DNA from: Planctomycetales bacterium ZRK34 | GTDB lineage: Bacteria; Planctomycetota; Phycisphaerae; Phycisphaerales; Zrk34 | Assembly (NCBI GenBank): GCA_014873095.1 | Contig: CP050848.1 | Location: forward strand, 1,488,001-1,552,000 | Direction of reading: 5' to 3' | Length of the DNA: 64,000 bases | Shown here: positions 29,561-62,459 of the stretch, in pieces | Numbering within the stretch: position 1 is the first letter of the stretch | Layout of the letters: every line of letters starts with the position of its first letter | Notes under the pieces: generated by a model | Told to the model about the DNA's origin: nothing | Database searches by the model: none | Seen by the model: the letters and a program-made list of their open reading frames with translations, nothing else | Made by a program: the position numbers and the translations under genes

Positions 29561-29624
29561 CGTTTAGCCGCGACCCGCAGGGGAGCGCGACGCCAAACGC
29601 TCCCCTGCGGGTCGCGGCTAAACG
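29561..29624. repeat. REP-type element, subfamily 2: perfect 27-bp inverted repeat
   Basis: The arms 29561-29587 and 29598-29624 are perfect complements around a 10-nt loop. The outer ends read CGTTTAGCCGCGAC and GTCGCGGCTAAACG. It sits exactly between the convergent aroDE gene (stop 29550) and the gene at 29627, so it may also stop transcription from both sides. Half-elements of the same subfamily occur at 52556, 61404 and 62429. Confidence 0.9.
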
Positions 29625-36354: not shown

Positions 36355-37170
36355 TCACCAGTATCGTTCAAAGTGAATGCTGCCCGGTTGCTGGCGGGTG
36401 TGCGTGACAAACCCGCGGGCCTGAAGCAGGGCTTCGGAGTCGTCGACCATGCGGGGATTGCCGCACAGGTAGACATGGCATCGCTCGGCATCAAACGGCA
36501 CGCCGAGCATCGATTCGAAACGGTCCGGGTGGAGCAGGTCCGTGACGCGCCCGTGCAGCCCGCCCCACGGGCCGGCGTCGGGTTCACGCGAGCAGATGGG
36601 CACATATTTGAAGGTCGAATCCGCCTCGGCGATGTCGCGCAGTTGGCGATCGTACCCCAGGTCATCGGCGGTCCGCACCCCGTGAACAATCACGAAACGC
36701 TCCCACCGCCCGGTGCCCCCATAGGTCCGAAGCATGGAAAGATAGGGGGAAATCCCCGTACCGGTGGCGATCATCACCAGGTTTTGCCCCGTGGGGATAC
36801 GCTGGAGGGTGAACTCGCCTTTGATGTGCGGATCGACCCACACGCGCCCGCCGGACTTGTCGTGCCAGAGCTTGCTGGTCAGCTTGCCGTCGCGGACGTG
36901 GACGGTGTAAAACTCCAGCGTATCGCCACCGGGCTTCGAGGCGATCGAATACTCGCGGCGACACAGCTTCTTCCAGCGCGGATCGCCCGCGGCAAACTCA
37001 TCGGGATTTTCCACCGGCGGATGATCACGCGGCAAACCGAGGGTGGCGTACTGCCCCGGCTCAAAGGTCGGCGGCGCCCCGCTGTCGAGTTTCACACGAA
37101 ACACCGCCGCGGCGGGATTCACATCGCGCCAGTCGACGATGGTGGCGTTGTAGGGTTCAGGTGTGCTCAT
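36355..37170 (-). CDS. fpr: Ferredoxin--NADP reductase, plant/bacterial Fpr type
   Basis: 271 aa. The FAD-binding barrel has CRREYSIASKPGGDTLEFYT, with RxYS contacting FAD. The NADP domain has MIATGTGISPYLSMLRTY and the pyrophosphate/substrate motif YLCGNPRMVDDSE. The C-terminus ends in aromatic residues (FERYW), as in many bacterial Fpr proteins where the terminal aromatic stacks on the flavin. It moves electrons between NADPH and ferredoxin or flavodoxin in the cytoplasm. A second, unrelated ferredoxin reductase is at 38073, on the other side of the RAYT unit. A REP-type repeat begins 66 nt upstream of its start. Confidence 0.92.
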   Translation of the reverse strand: MSTPEPYNATIVDWRDVNPAAAVFRVKLDSGAPPTFEPGQYATLGLPRDHPPVENPDEFAAGDPRWKKLCRREYSIASKPGGDTLEFYTVHVRDGKLTSKLWHDKSGGRVWVDPHIKGEFTLQRIPTGQNLVMIATGTGISPYLSMLRTYGGTGRWERFVIVHGVRTADDLGYDRQLRDIAEADSTFKYVPICSREPDAGPWGGLHGRVTDLLHPDRFESMLGVPFDAERCHVYLCGNPRMVDDSEALLQARGFVTHTRQQPGSIHFERYW

Positions 37171-37235: not shown

Positions 37236-37349
37236 CGTTTAGCCGGCGAGTTTACTCGCCGCTTCGGCGCGGGTGTTTTGCCGCCACATCGTGCGATCAC
37301 CGCGCGATGTTCAATCACCCAAGCGGCGGGCGAGCCCGCCGGCTAAACG
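37236..37349. repeat. REP-type element, subfamily 1, left of the RAYT gene
   Basis: 114 nt: a 29-nt left arm beginning CGTTTAGCCGGCGAG with inner hairpin GGCGAG-TTTA-CTCGCC, a 56-nt core (37265-37320), and a 29-nt right arm ending CCGCCGGCTAAACG with inner hairpin GGCGGGC-GA-GCCCGCC. The arms are identical to those of the copy at 37947, while the core is in the opposite orientation. Confidence 0.92.
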
Positions 37350-37388
37350 AAACTTGCCGTTGCGGCGAGCGAACGCTACTTTCAACGC

Positions 37389-37946
37389 ATGGTCATCGCG
37401 TCGCACGTGATCTTCTGTGCGTATGGCTTCTGGCTGCCGAATGACCCCCGGGGTTCATGGTCGGATGTCGTCGCAGCCTGGGAACTGCTCCGATTCGGCC
37501 GGGCGACGACGACCGATACCCGCCGCTCCGTCGCTGGTGCCCAACACGACATCCAACAACGCCGACTGGCCAAACGGGCCTTGAAATACCCACACGTGTC
37601 ATTCACCGGCACCCAGGCGCTGACCATTTCGCGAGGTTTCGCCAAGGCGATCACGGAAAGTGATTACCGGGTGCACGCTTGTGCGATTCTGCCGGAGCAC
37701 GTGCATATGGTTATCGCCCGCCACGCGGACCGCACCGTCGAACGAATCGTCGGCCACCTCAAGGGACGCGCCACCCAGGCGCTTGTCGATGCGGACTGGC
37801 CCAAGGGACGCCCGGTGTGGGCCGAGCGGTGCTGGAAAGTGTTTCTTGATGACGATCGTGATGTCCACCGGGCGATCGACTACGTGAACCAGAATCCGAT
37901 CAAGGAACGCAAACCACCGCAGACCTGGTCATTCATCCATCGGTAA
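37389..37946 (+). CDS. REP-associated tyrosine transposase (RAYT, Y1/IS200-like)
   Basis: 185 aa. A Y1-type HUH nuclease: the His-hydrophobic-His motif is in AILPEHVHMVIARH, and the catalytic Tyr is probably in HRAIDYVNQNPIKER, which matches the YxxxNP motif of RAYT proteins. The N-terminus (IFCAYGFWLPNDPRGSW) is also typical of this group. RAYTs cut and move REP palindromes as single strands. The gene lies between two 114-nt palindromic repeats (37236-37349 and 37947-38060); the second begins directly after the stop codon. It is full length and without frameshift, so probably active. It may be domesticated, as most RAYTs are single-copy. Confidence 0.92.
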   Translation: MVIASHVIFCAYGFWLPNDPRGSWSDVVAAWELLRFGRATTTDTRRSVAGAQHDIQQRRLAKRALKYPHVSFTGTQALTISRGFAKAITESDYRVHACAILPEHVHMVIARHADRTVERIVGHLKGRATQALVDADWPKGRPVWAERCWKVFLDDDRDVHRAIDYVNQNPIKERKPPQTWSFIHR

Positions 37947-38060
37947 CGTTTAGCCGGCGAGTTTACTCGCCGCTTGCGTGAATCAACATCGCGCGGTGAT
38001 CGCACGACATTGCGGATAAATACCCGCGCCCAAGCGGCGGGCGAGCCCGCCGGCTAAACG
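37947..38060. repeat. REP-type element, subfamily 1, right of the RAYT gene
   Basis: 114 nt, starting at the base after the RAYT stop codon. The arms 37947-37975 and 38032-38060 are the same as in the left copy. The 56-nt core (37976-38031) aligns with the reverse complement of the left core (about 45 of 56 positions by eye), sharing the block AACATCGCGCGGTGATCGCA. Confidence 0.92.
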
Positions 38061-38072
38061 ATGCCATGGCGA

Positions 38073-39458
38073 TCACCGGGTTTCGCTGGGCTGCCCGTCG
38101 AGTACGGCGATCATCTCGTCGATGCGGGTGAAGTTGTCGCGGGGCTTGCCCTTGGCCTGGCCGCGTTCGACTTCGGCGGCGTCGATCTTCAGCCAGTCTT
38201 CATACGACACCGGCCGCACGCCGCGCTGTTTGAGAATCGCGCGAAGTCCCGAATCGTCGCGGGCCTTGGGCTCCAGTCGCTTCAGGTCGTCGAACAGTTT
38301 GTCGACCGACTCTTCGGAATCCTTCTTGTTGGTGCCGATCAGACCCGACGGGCCGCGCTTGATCCAGCCCACGGCATAGAGGCCGGGCTCGACGCGACCG
38401 GACTCGTTGGGCACCACGCCCTTGCCCTCGTCGAAGGGCGTGCCTTCGATCGGCACGCCGTGATACCCGATCGAGCGGAAGAACACCTGGCAGTCGAGGG
38501 TTTCGGTTTCACCGGTGCCGCGCGCCTTGCGGGCGCCGGGTTCGCCGACGAGCTTGTTGCGTTCGAGCACGACCTGTTCGACGCCGCCGTTGCCGCGCAG
38601 CTTGATCGGGCTCTTGAAAAAGTGAATGATGATTTTGCGGGGCGCGCCGGTGGGCTTGCGATCGGCGAATTCCCGGAGAATCTCCATGTTGCGTTTGTTG
38701 GCCTCGTTGCCGGGCAGTTCCAGCTCGATGGCACAGTTCTCGTTGATGCGCAGGTCGTCGGGATTGACGATGACGTCGCAGCCTTCGATCTCTCCGAGCT
38801 CTTTGATCTCCTTGGGCGTGAACGCCGCCTGGGCGGGACCACGCCGGCCGACCACGTGAACCTCCCGCACCTGCGAGTCAGCCAGCGCGTCGACGGCATG
38901 TGAGGCCATGTCGGTGGTCGACAGTTGCTCGGATGTTTTGGCCAGCACGCGCGCCACGTCCATGGCGACATTGCCCTGGCCCATGACCATCGCGACCGGG
39001 TGGCTGAGGTCGAATTCACGATCGCGGTAATCCGGGTGGCTGTTGTACCAGGCGCAGAACTCGGTGGCGGTGTAGCTGCGCGGCAGGTCGACGCCGGGGA
39101 TGTTCAGCTTGCGATCGGTCTGAGCGCCGAAGGCGAGGATGACCGCATCGAACTCGGCCCGCAGCTCGTCCATCGTGATATCGCTGCCGATCGTGATGTT
39201 GCCCCAGAAGCGGTAGTTCGGATGCTGGGCAGTTTTTGCGTAGACCTTGATGACGTTGCGGATCTTCGCGTGATCTGGGGCGACGCCGAAACGGACCAAC
39301 CCAAACGGCGTGGGCAGGCGTTCAAACATGTGCACGTGTACGTTCATCCCCGACCGCAGGAGATAGTCGGCCGCGTAAAATCCACTCGGGCCGCTTCCCA
39401 CAATCGCTACGCGTAGGGGGCATTGTTCTGATCCCAGTTCTACCGCTTGATCTGGCAT
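38073..39458 (-). CDS. fprA: FprA-type ferredoxin-NADP reductase (adrenodoxin reductase family)
   Basis: 461 aa from ATG 39458, with AAGG just upstream. The FAD site is VAIVGSGPSGFYAADYL near the N-terminus. Family blocks follow: FERLPTPFGLVRFGVAPDHA, the NADP loop MVMGQGNVAMDVARVLA, VVGRRGPAQAAFTPKEIKEL, and GLYAVGWIKRGPSGLIGTNK near the end. The length and pattern match mycobacterial FprA and mitochondrial adrenodoxin reductase. It transfers electrons from NADPH to ferredoxin. An in-frame start at 39515 would add 19 residues and reach to within 6 nt of the divergent rdgB gene, so the shorter start is preferred. A REP-type repeat lies 12 nt beyond its stop. Confidence 0.92.
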   Translation of the reverse strand: MPDQAVELGSEQCPLRVAIVGSGPSGFYAADYLLRSGMNVHVHMFERLPTPFGLVRFGVAPDHAKIRNVIKVYAKTAQHPNYRFWGNITIGSDITMDELRAEFDAVILAFGAQTDRKLNIPGVDLPRSYTATEFCAWYNSHPDYRDREFDLSHPVAMVMGQGNVAMDVARVLAKTSEQLSTTDMASHAVDALADSQVREVHVVGRRGPAQAAFTPKEIKELGEIEGCDVIVNPDDLRINENCAIELELPGNEANKRNMEILREFADRKPTGAPRKIIIHFFKSPIKLRGNGGVEQVVLERNKLVGEPGARKARGTGETETLDCQVFFRSIGYHGVPIEGTPFDEGKGVVPNESGRVEPGLYAVGWIKRGPSGLIGTNKKDSEESVDKLFDDLKRLEPKARDDSGLRAILKQRGVRPVSYEDWLKIDAAEVERGQAKGKPRDNFTRIDEMIAVLDGQPSETR

Positions 39459-39520
39459 GACCTTGATTCCAGTCCGAAAAGGTTGTTCAACGCGACGCTC
39501 TGCACTACTGTACACGACCC

Positions 39521-40162
39521 ATGAGTGTACCTGACTCCATCGTGTTTGCCAGTTCCAATCCCCATAAGCTGGAGGAAGTTTCCCGTGTTTTTGCCGGGAT
39601 AAACGTAACGGTTGTGGGGCTGGACGGATTTCAGGAAATCCCCGAACCCGTCGAGGACGGTCGAACCTTCACCGCCAACGCCCTGATCAAGGCCCGGTAT
39701 TACGCCCAGGCGACCGGCCGGGTCGTGCTCGCCGACGACAGCGGGCTCTGCGTCGACGCGCTGGGGGGCGCTCCGGGCGTGCTCAGCGCCCGCTACGCCG
39801 GGGTCATCGATCAGCCCCGCCCCCGGAAGCAAGTCGATGCGGCGAACAACGCCAAACTGGTCGATCAGCTTCGCGCGGTCCCCGAAGCCGAGCGGACAGC
39901 CCGGTTCATGTGCGTGATGGCGCTGTGCGATGCGAAGACGACCTGGGCGGTTGTGCGCGGCTCGGTCGAAGGCCGCATCGTGCTGGAGCCCCGCGGCGAC
40001 AACGGTTTCGGGTATGACCCGCATTTCGAGATCGCCGCCCTCGGCCGCACCGCCGCCGAACTGCCGCCCGACGAAAAAAACGCCATCAGCCACCGCGGCG
40101 TCGCCTGTCGCCACATGATCGACGCGCTGCGTCAGCTACAGGTGCAACGCCCCCCCGTTTAG
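39521..40162 (+). CDS. rdgB: XTP/dITP diphosphatase (RdgB/HAM1 family)
   Basis: 213 aa. The N-terminal FASSNPHKLEEVSRVF is the nucleotide-binding SxNxxK motif. VLADDSGLCVDALGGAPGVL, then SARYAG, is the catalytic acidic block, and GFGYDPHFEIAALGRTAAEL then PPDEKNAISHRGVA is the C-terminal signature. It hydrolyses non-canonical purine triphosphates to monophosphates, preventing their use in DNA. The stop codon TAG (40160-40162) is the TAG of the GTTTAG end of a REP-type repeat (40156-40268), so the last residues come from the repeat junction. It is divergent from fprA. Confidence 0.95.
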   Translation: MSVPDSIVFASSNPHKLEEVSRVFAGINVTVVGLDGFQEIPEPVEDGRTFTANALIKARYYAQATGRVVLADDSGLCVDALGGAPGVLSARYAGVIDQPRPRKQVDAANNAKLVDQLRAVPEAERTARFMCVMALCDAKTTWAVVRGSVEGRIVLEPRGDNGFGYDPHFEIAALGRTAAELPPDEKNAISHRGVACRHMIDALRQLQVQRPPV

Positions 40163-40268
40163 CCGGCGAGCTTGCTCGCCGCTGCGGCAGAGTTGTTTTT
40201 ACAGTACATCATTCAATCACCACGTGACGCACATCATCGCAAGCGGCGAGCAAGCTCGCCGGCTAAAC
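40156..40268. repeat. REP-type element, subfamily 1, overlapping the end of rdgB
   Basis: 113 nt. The left arm CGTTTAGCCGGCGAGCTTGC carries the inner hairpin GGCGAG-CTTG-CTCGCC; the right arm holds the same hairpin as GGCGAG-CAAG-CTCGCC and ends CGGCTAAAC. The core aligns with the left RAYT-flanking copy in the same orientation. The element supplies the rdgB stop codon. Confidence 0.9.
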
Positions 40269-40388
40269 AAAAACACGTCCGATAACGACAATTTCAACGT
40301 AGTAACACCCAAATTCTTCTCCGTGATTAAGTCGCCCTGAAGGTCGGACGATGAACTTCGTGGACAGACAGTTGCTGAGGAGAAAAGC

Positions 40389-52555: not shown

Positions 52556-52585
52556 AAGCGCTCCCCTTCGGGTCGCGGCTAAACG
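52556..52585. repeat. REP-type half-element, subfamily 2
   Basis: GCGCTCCCCTTCGGGTCGCG then GCTAAACG matches the right half of the element at 29561-29624. Only one arm is present, so it cannot form the full hairpin. Confidence 0.7.
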
Positions 52586-61403: not shown

Positions 61404-61436
61404 GGCGACGCGCTCCCCTTCGGGTCGCGGCTAAAC
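61404..61436. repeat. REP-type half-element, subfamily 2
   Basis: GCGACGCGCTCCCCTTCGGG then TCGCGGCTAAAC matches the right half of the element at 29561-29624, like the copy at 52556. It stands 3 nt after the rhodanese stop codon. Confidence 0.75.
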
Positions 61437-62428: not shown

Positions 62429-62459
62429 CGTTTAGCCGCGAGCCGCAGGCGAGCGCGTC
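62429..62459. repeat. REP-type half-element, subfamily 2 (left half)
   Basis: CGTTTAGCCGCGAGCCGCAG then GCGAGCGCGTC resembles the left arm of the element at 29561. It lies 3 nt after the coaD stop codon. Confidence 0.7.

Follow-up and report, generated by a model that had tools for sequence, protein, structure and literature searches.

A REPtron of an under-described RAYT subfamily with one reversed REPIN core in Planctomycetales bacterium ZRK34

The window analysed here is a 64,000 nucleotide stretch of the genome of Planctomycetales bacterium ZRK34 (contig CP050848.1, positions 1,488,001 to 1,552,000). It contains a gene encoding a RAYT-like transposase (rayt) that is bracketed by two repeat elements, W1 and W2, spaced 711 nt apart; a third element of the same family, W3, lies to the right (Table 1). 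The initial annotation placed the unit between two ferredoxin-reductase genes. This was correct for the left neighbour, which is ferredoxin-NADP-reductase-like, whereas the right neighbour was found to encode an oxidoreductase of the Pyr_redox_2/GltD type. Genomes G005 and G003, from two other genera of the family, have both oxidoreductase genes adjacent, with neither a RAYT gene nor a REP between them, which fits insertion or acquisition of the unit in the ZRK34 lineage.

Table 1. Features of the rayt locus, with positions counted from the first nucleotide of the window
Feature	Position	Strand	Description
Left neighbouring gene	36355..37170	-	Ferredoxin-NADP-reductase-like
REPIN 1 (W1)	37236..37349	+	114 nt; left arm 37236-37264 (tip GAGTTTACTC); core 37265-37320; right arm 37321-37349 (tip GGGCGAGCCC on the + strand)
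rayt	37389..37946	+	185 aa; HUH motif PEHVH (H104, H106); catalytic tyrosine Y165 in YVNQNP
REPIN 2 (W2)	37947..38060	+	114 nt; starts straight after the rayt stop codon; left arm 37947-37975; core 37976-38031 (reversed relative to W1); right arm 38032-38060
Right neighbouring gene	38073..39515	-	FAD/NAD(P)-binding oxidoreductase, Pyr_redox_2/GltD type
REPIN 3 (W3)	40156..40269	+	Full-length core in the W1 orientation; both arms with the GAG..CTC tip

The product of rayt matched the Pfam family Y1_Tnp above its cut-off (7.5e-6). Its best NCBIfam match was REP_Tyr_transpos (NF047646) with 55.6 bits (E 5e-15), which is under the curated cut-off of 80 bits; that this was nevertheless the best family points to a divergent relative. 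The protein has the HUH motif and the one catalytic tyrosine, in a Y..xNP context, of Y1 HUH transposases, and an alignment of 27 homologues showed H104, H106, Y165, N169 and P170 to be invariant. An AlphaFold2 model (pLDDT 83) had as its best PDB match 4ER8, the Escherichia coli TnpA_REP with its REP hairpin (E 2e-6), followed by the ISDra2 and IS608 transposases. Residues 20-51 were mostly without confident structure in the model; they are preceded by a conserved subfamily motif, YGFWLPNDPRGSWS, at residues 12-25. Additionally, the gene is flanked on both sides by REPINs whose REPs are dispersed in the genome, as is expected of a RAYT. The foot GT[AG]G was absent; the foot at this locus is GTTTAGCC, and across the subfamily it is (G)TTTAGC or GTTAGC. 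Published subclasses 2.6 and 3 are also without a GT[AG]G foot (PMC6006769), so this foot does not define the whole RAYT family. The assignment as RAYT-like, already made in the initial annotation, stands on fold, motifs and REP context.

The two elements beside rayt had been described as two REPs. They are indeed repeats of the REP type, but each 114-nt element is a facing pair of REP hairpins, that is, a REPIN and not one REP. Within one element, the left arm is nearly the reverse complement of the right arm (24/29); the hairpin tip is the sole difference, reading GAGTTTACTC in the left arm and GGGCTCGCCC in the right. The inner stems of the arms, CGCCGCTT and AAGCGGCG, are perfect over 8 nt, and the arms fold together as near-perfect inverted repeats. 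As single-stranded DNA, W1 folded at -41.2 kcal/mol with a z score of -6.8 against shuffled sequences; the z scores of W2 and W3 were -4.6 and -10.2, respectively. Folding and covariation of the stem (see below) both agree with the definition of a REPIN as two inverted REPs and a spacer forming a hairpin.

Because the two arms differ in their tips, arms in the same order can be told apart from inverted ones. Had W2 been a whole-element inversion of W1, 5 mismatches would be seen in each arm, all of them in the hairpin tip; alignment of the 29-nt arms revealed none (0/29 and 0/29), and W1 and W2 agree fully in the sequence and order of their arms. The 56-nt cores showed the opposite. Their ungapped identity was 46/56 in inverted and 20/56 in direct orientation, which agrees closely with the earlier count by eye of about 45 of 56, and the alignment scores were +36 and -5, respectively. 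Chance likeness of the cores was ruled out, as 2000 shuffles gave a mean score of -9.3 (sd 4.1) and a maximum of 7. Palindromy of the cores as a trivial cause was likewise ruled out, since they match their own reverse complement at 12-22 of 56 positions only.

The initial annotation held that these repeats should recur in the genome, and they do. A pattern search with foot and stem (GTTTAGCCGGCGNG) found 50 exact sites in the 5.71-Mb single-contig genome, and site-by-site reading resolved the REP family into 25 paired elements and about 12 single REPs, counts that derive from searches in which 40 of 81 candidates were scored, complemented by the pattern search. In the paired elements the feet point outward and are 57-112 nt apart, foot to foot. 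The tips are of the types GAG..CTC and GGG..CCC, with minor variants. Across the family 95% of the cells of the hairpin stem were paired compared to 86% in shuffled sets, and 23 cells had changed on both sides compared to 5.4; neither value was reached in any of 500 shuffles, and sliding the stem partner abolished the pairing. The REP stem is maintained through compensating changes. The arm polarity of asymmetric REPINs did not depend on the replichore (6:2 vs 3:0, Fisher p = 1; small n), the origin and terminus having been placed by the sign changes of the skew, near 2.85 Mb and near 0, in 20 sampled stretches of 15 kb; strand-biased insertion was unsupported by this comparison.

What had been called a long structured core is the spacer of the REPIN, and most REPINs of the genome have shorter, unrelated spacers. 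The long core is common to five pairs: W1, W2, W3 and the copies at 1977482 and 3060860. When core orientation was classed over these copies, W1, W3, 1977482 and 3060860 ran one way and W2 alone was reversed. Since the arms of W3 and 3060860 are like-tipped, core orientation in these two is unconnected with arm order, which leaves W1 and 1977482 against W2 for the comparison with arm polarity. The cores of W1 and W2 differ at 10 positions from each other and at 9 and 10 positions from the 1977482 copy, which is 450 kb away. No shortened version of the long core, in either orientation, stood clearly above shuffles in the other REPINs. W3 starts inside the end of an open reading frame (39521-40162) that is XTP/dITP-diphosphatase-like by eye, and the TAG of its GTTTAGCC foot is the stop codon of that frame. 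A second REP family, TTTAGCCGCGA[GC]CC, is present in the window at 29563-29622, 52570-52583, 61422-61435 and 62431-62444; it has about 65 copies genome-wide and flanks another RAYT (G000:C1:711654-712235).

The genome encodes three closer paralogues of this RAYT, with 64, 63 and 50% identity, and several distant ones. The three close paralogues were flanked by palindromes with sequences of their own, and so were most of those distant paralogues that were inspected. One paralogue (L032) has its own REP family of about 65 dispersed copies, and the REP of another is nearly restricted to its own locus. Distant Y1 transposase genes of the same genome (L034, L035, L037, L038 and L042) each have their own long or double palindromes, for example GACCCCGGAGGGGTCGGCTATATAGCCGACCCGTCTCGGGTCGG around L034. 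A REP/RAYT pair in a planctomycete had seemed unusual. This view was not borne out: matches to the RAYT subfamily at 1e-30 or better were present in 62 of 298 genomes from the class, and earlier work had reported REP families in Planctomycetes and, in R. baltica, many repeat-flanked tyrosine transposases (PMC3733652). Most of the relatives surveyed adjoin hairpins that vary in the stem and have (G)TTTAGC or GTTAGC as the foot. At least 13 relatives (L104, L139, L143, L145, L150, L153, L155, L156, L160, L161, L162, L164 and L201) have a RAYT frame whose last 4-5 nt fall within the downstream REP, and the foot TTTAG/GTTAG appears to provide the stop codon of the RAYT. The RAYTs of L116, L118 and L136 lie inside short tandem arrays of alternating REP variants with two very different tips, resembling E. 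coli BIME-2.

Arm order was surveyed over 106 non-redundant RAYT loci, mainly from one class and picked by similarity to this RAYT. REPs of both orientations were present on both sides of the gene at 12 of the 106 loci, and at 9 of these the arms could be distinguished. All 9 showed direct arm order (8 if the related L116 and L118 are counted once), with two-sided p values of 0.004 and 0.008 for 9 and 8 loci, respectively, the loci being treated as independent. Arms in the same order are the normal state around these RAYTs. Direct arms are thus the rule and the reversed W2 core is the exception, and the question shifts from why the arms match to why the core of W2 is reversed. With respect to the cores, L106 has them in direct orientation, at L087 they are unrelated, at L104 they are too short to judge, and the pair in the window alone has them reversed. 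At L106, where arms and cores are both direct, conservation is much higher in the arms than in the cores, which indicates that slow arms and fast cores require no special event. At L087 the arms match in order around unrelated cores, so arms and cores can be decoupled.

We read the unit as a REPtron, a rayt gene bracketed by REPINs that it presumably mobilises, in which the spacer of W2 was inverted once and in place; we give this reading as a whole a probability of about 0.5. From proximity and by analogy with known systems, we infer that this RAYT acts on these REPs. Of the two hairpins on a REPIN strand, the HUH single-strand transposase would recognise the one preceded by the foot (G)TTTAGC, the other arm being offered by the bottom strand; this strand specificity is likewise presumed. 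The spacer between the arms would be passenger DNA. That of W2 would have been inverted most likely by DNA polymerase template switching or by RecA-independent recombination between the inner stems of the arms, events that would leave arms and tips in place and reverse the core only. In yeast, template switching between short inverted repeats inverts spacers and homogenises the arms (PMC8604942).

The survey favours this in-place inversion, because arms in the same order are the rule around these RAYTs. Three observations speak against it. The cores of W1 and W2 are no closer to each other than to the 1977482 copy although their arms are identical and have uncommon tips, the spacers of the documented template switches are only a few bases long compared to 56 nt here, and the inversion is a single event. 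Equidistant cores between identical arms with uncommon tips suggest that the arms were homogenised apart from the cores. The same pattern is predicted if W2 had been inserted or duplicated in inverted orientation and its arms, or at least the 10-nt tips, had later been overwritten by gene conversion from W1, restoring their order. This second account, which the initial annotation had offered beside the flip, is possible but less probable. The contrast between the arms (0/58 differing) and the cores (10/56 differing) of W1 and W2 is significant (Fisher p = 0.0005), the shared uncommon tips look like later homogenisation, and the arms of L087 also match in order around unrelated cores. Arm conversion would however require a separate short tract for each arm, with the elements in direct alignment despite their mismatched cores, and at L106 the arms exceed the cores in conservation without any inversion.

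A displacement of the core or the arms by the RAYT is unlikely; the enzyme would have cleaved single-stranded REPs and rejoined them at CT dinucleotides, one of which lies in the inner edge (GCCGCTT) of every arm. In E. coli and S. maltophilia, TnpA_REP cleaves at a CT on the 5′ or 3′ side of the REP and carries out strand transfer (PMC8266576), and an inner CT was found here on both strands; with one flipped copy in 25, such events would have to be rare. We give slightly less credence still to the idea that the two ends of a REPIN, its arms, differ in function and keep a fixed polarity towards the gene, and that the RAYT, acting at the inner CTs, would swap or invert the spacer between them and so make swappable-core cassettes. 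Least probable of all is an IS200/IS605-like or TIRYT-type transposon moving as a unit with 114-nt terminal inverted repeats: the unit does read as an 82% inverted repeat of 114 nt around a gene and is missing between the neighbour genes in other genera, but the arm tips are in direct and not terminal inverted order (full inversion implying the 5 mismatches per arm noted above), about 35 other sites have the repeats but not this gene, and near-identical copies of the unit were not found in the genome, where the closest RAYTs, at 50-64% identity, have their own REPs, so that the whole unit has not recently been multi-copy.

To return to the in-place inversion, the flipped core was probably a one-off rearrangement between the mirror-image ends of the repeat, and probably a by-product of replication through these mirror-image arms. 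The locus is a real REPtron of an under-described subfamily, with the foot TTTAGC instead of GTAG and one core-flip event; it is of a known kind and its novelty is modest. For the question of how RAYTs spread REPs, the subfamily is useful in that some of its genomes have several RAYT/REP pairs, its foot is different, its arms can be told apart and one core has been inverted naturally. This makes it possible to ask which parts of a REPIN the enzyme may fix (foot, stem and arm order) and which may be passenger (the core).

In its organisation the locus resembles known REPtrons, namely E. coli yafM with its Y and Z2 REPs and the RAYTs of Pseudomonas and Stenotrophomonas, in which an HUH/Y1 transposase is likewise flanked by extragenic hairpin repeats dispersed in the genome. 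The likeness extends to BIMEs or REPINs on both sides of the gene and to TnpA_REP as the best fold match, whereas the foot is (G)TTTAGC or GTTAGC here and GT[AG]G there. About 30-45 residues after the first strand, mostly of low confidence in the model, are extra compared to TnpA_REP. Corre et al. list no subclass consensus with which the motifs PEHVH, WA and YVxxNP agree exactly (PMC6006769, Table 1). TnpA_Y1 class 3, from Planctomycetes and Acidobacteria, shares the phylum, a length of about 178-185 aa and the HVH and W[TA] motifs, but has Y....EQ and a CnGA foot (PMC6006769) where the present protein has YVxxNP and TTTAGC.

The elements themselves have the structure of the P. fluorescens REPIN (PMC3116915), in which two inverted REPs and a spacer, about 57-114 nt, also form one hairpin and the spacer is less conserved than the REPs; they differ in that many copies have distinct arm tips, in that there are only 25 pairs, and in that the spacers are mostly unrelated and one is reversed. 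Two REP variants around one RAYT have been described at E. coli yafM as the dimorphic REPs Y and Z2 (PMC2817692), which is in line with the same-order arms with two tips seen here. BIME-1 and BIME-2 of E. coli are likewise mosaics of REP variants in alternating orientation, from which the present elements differ in having no long tandem arrays and in foot and host phylum. Finally, while the inversions by template switching (PMC8604942) are of yeast and ours is a proposed event in a bacterium, the outcome is the same: arms in place and homogenised, with the spacer between them reversed.
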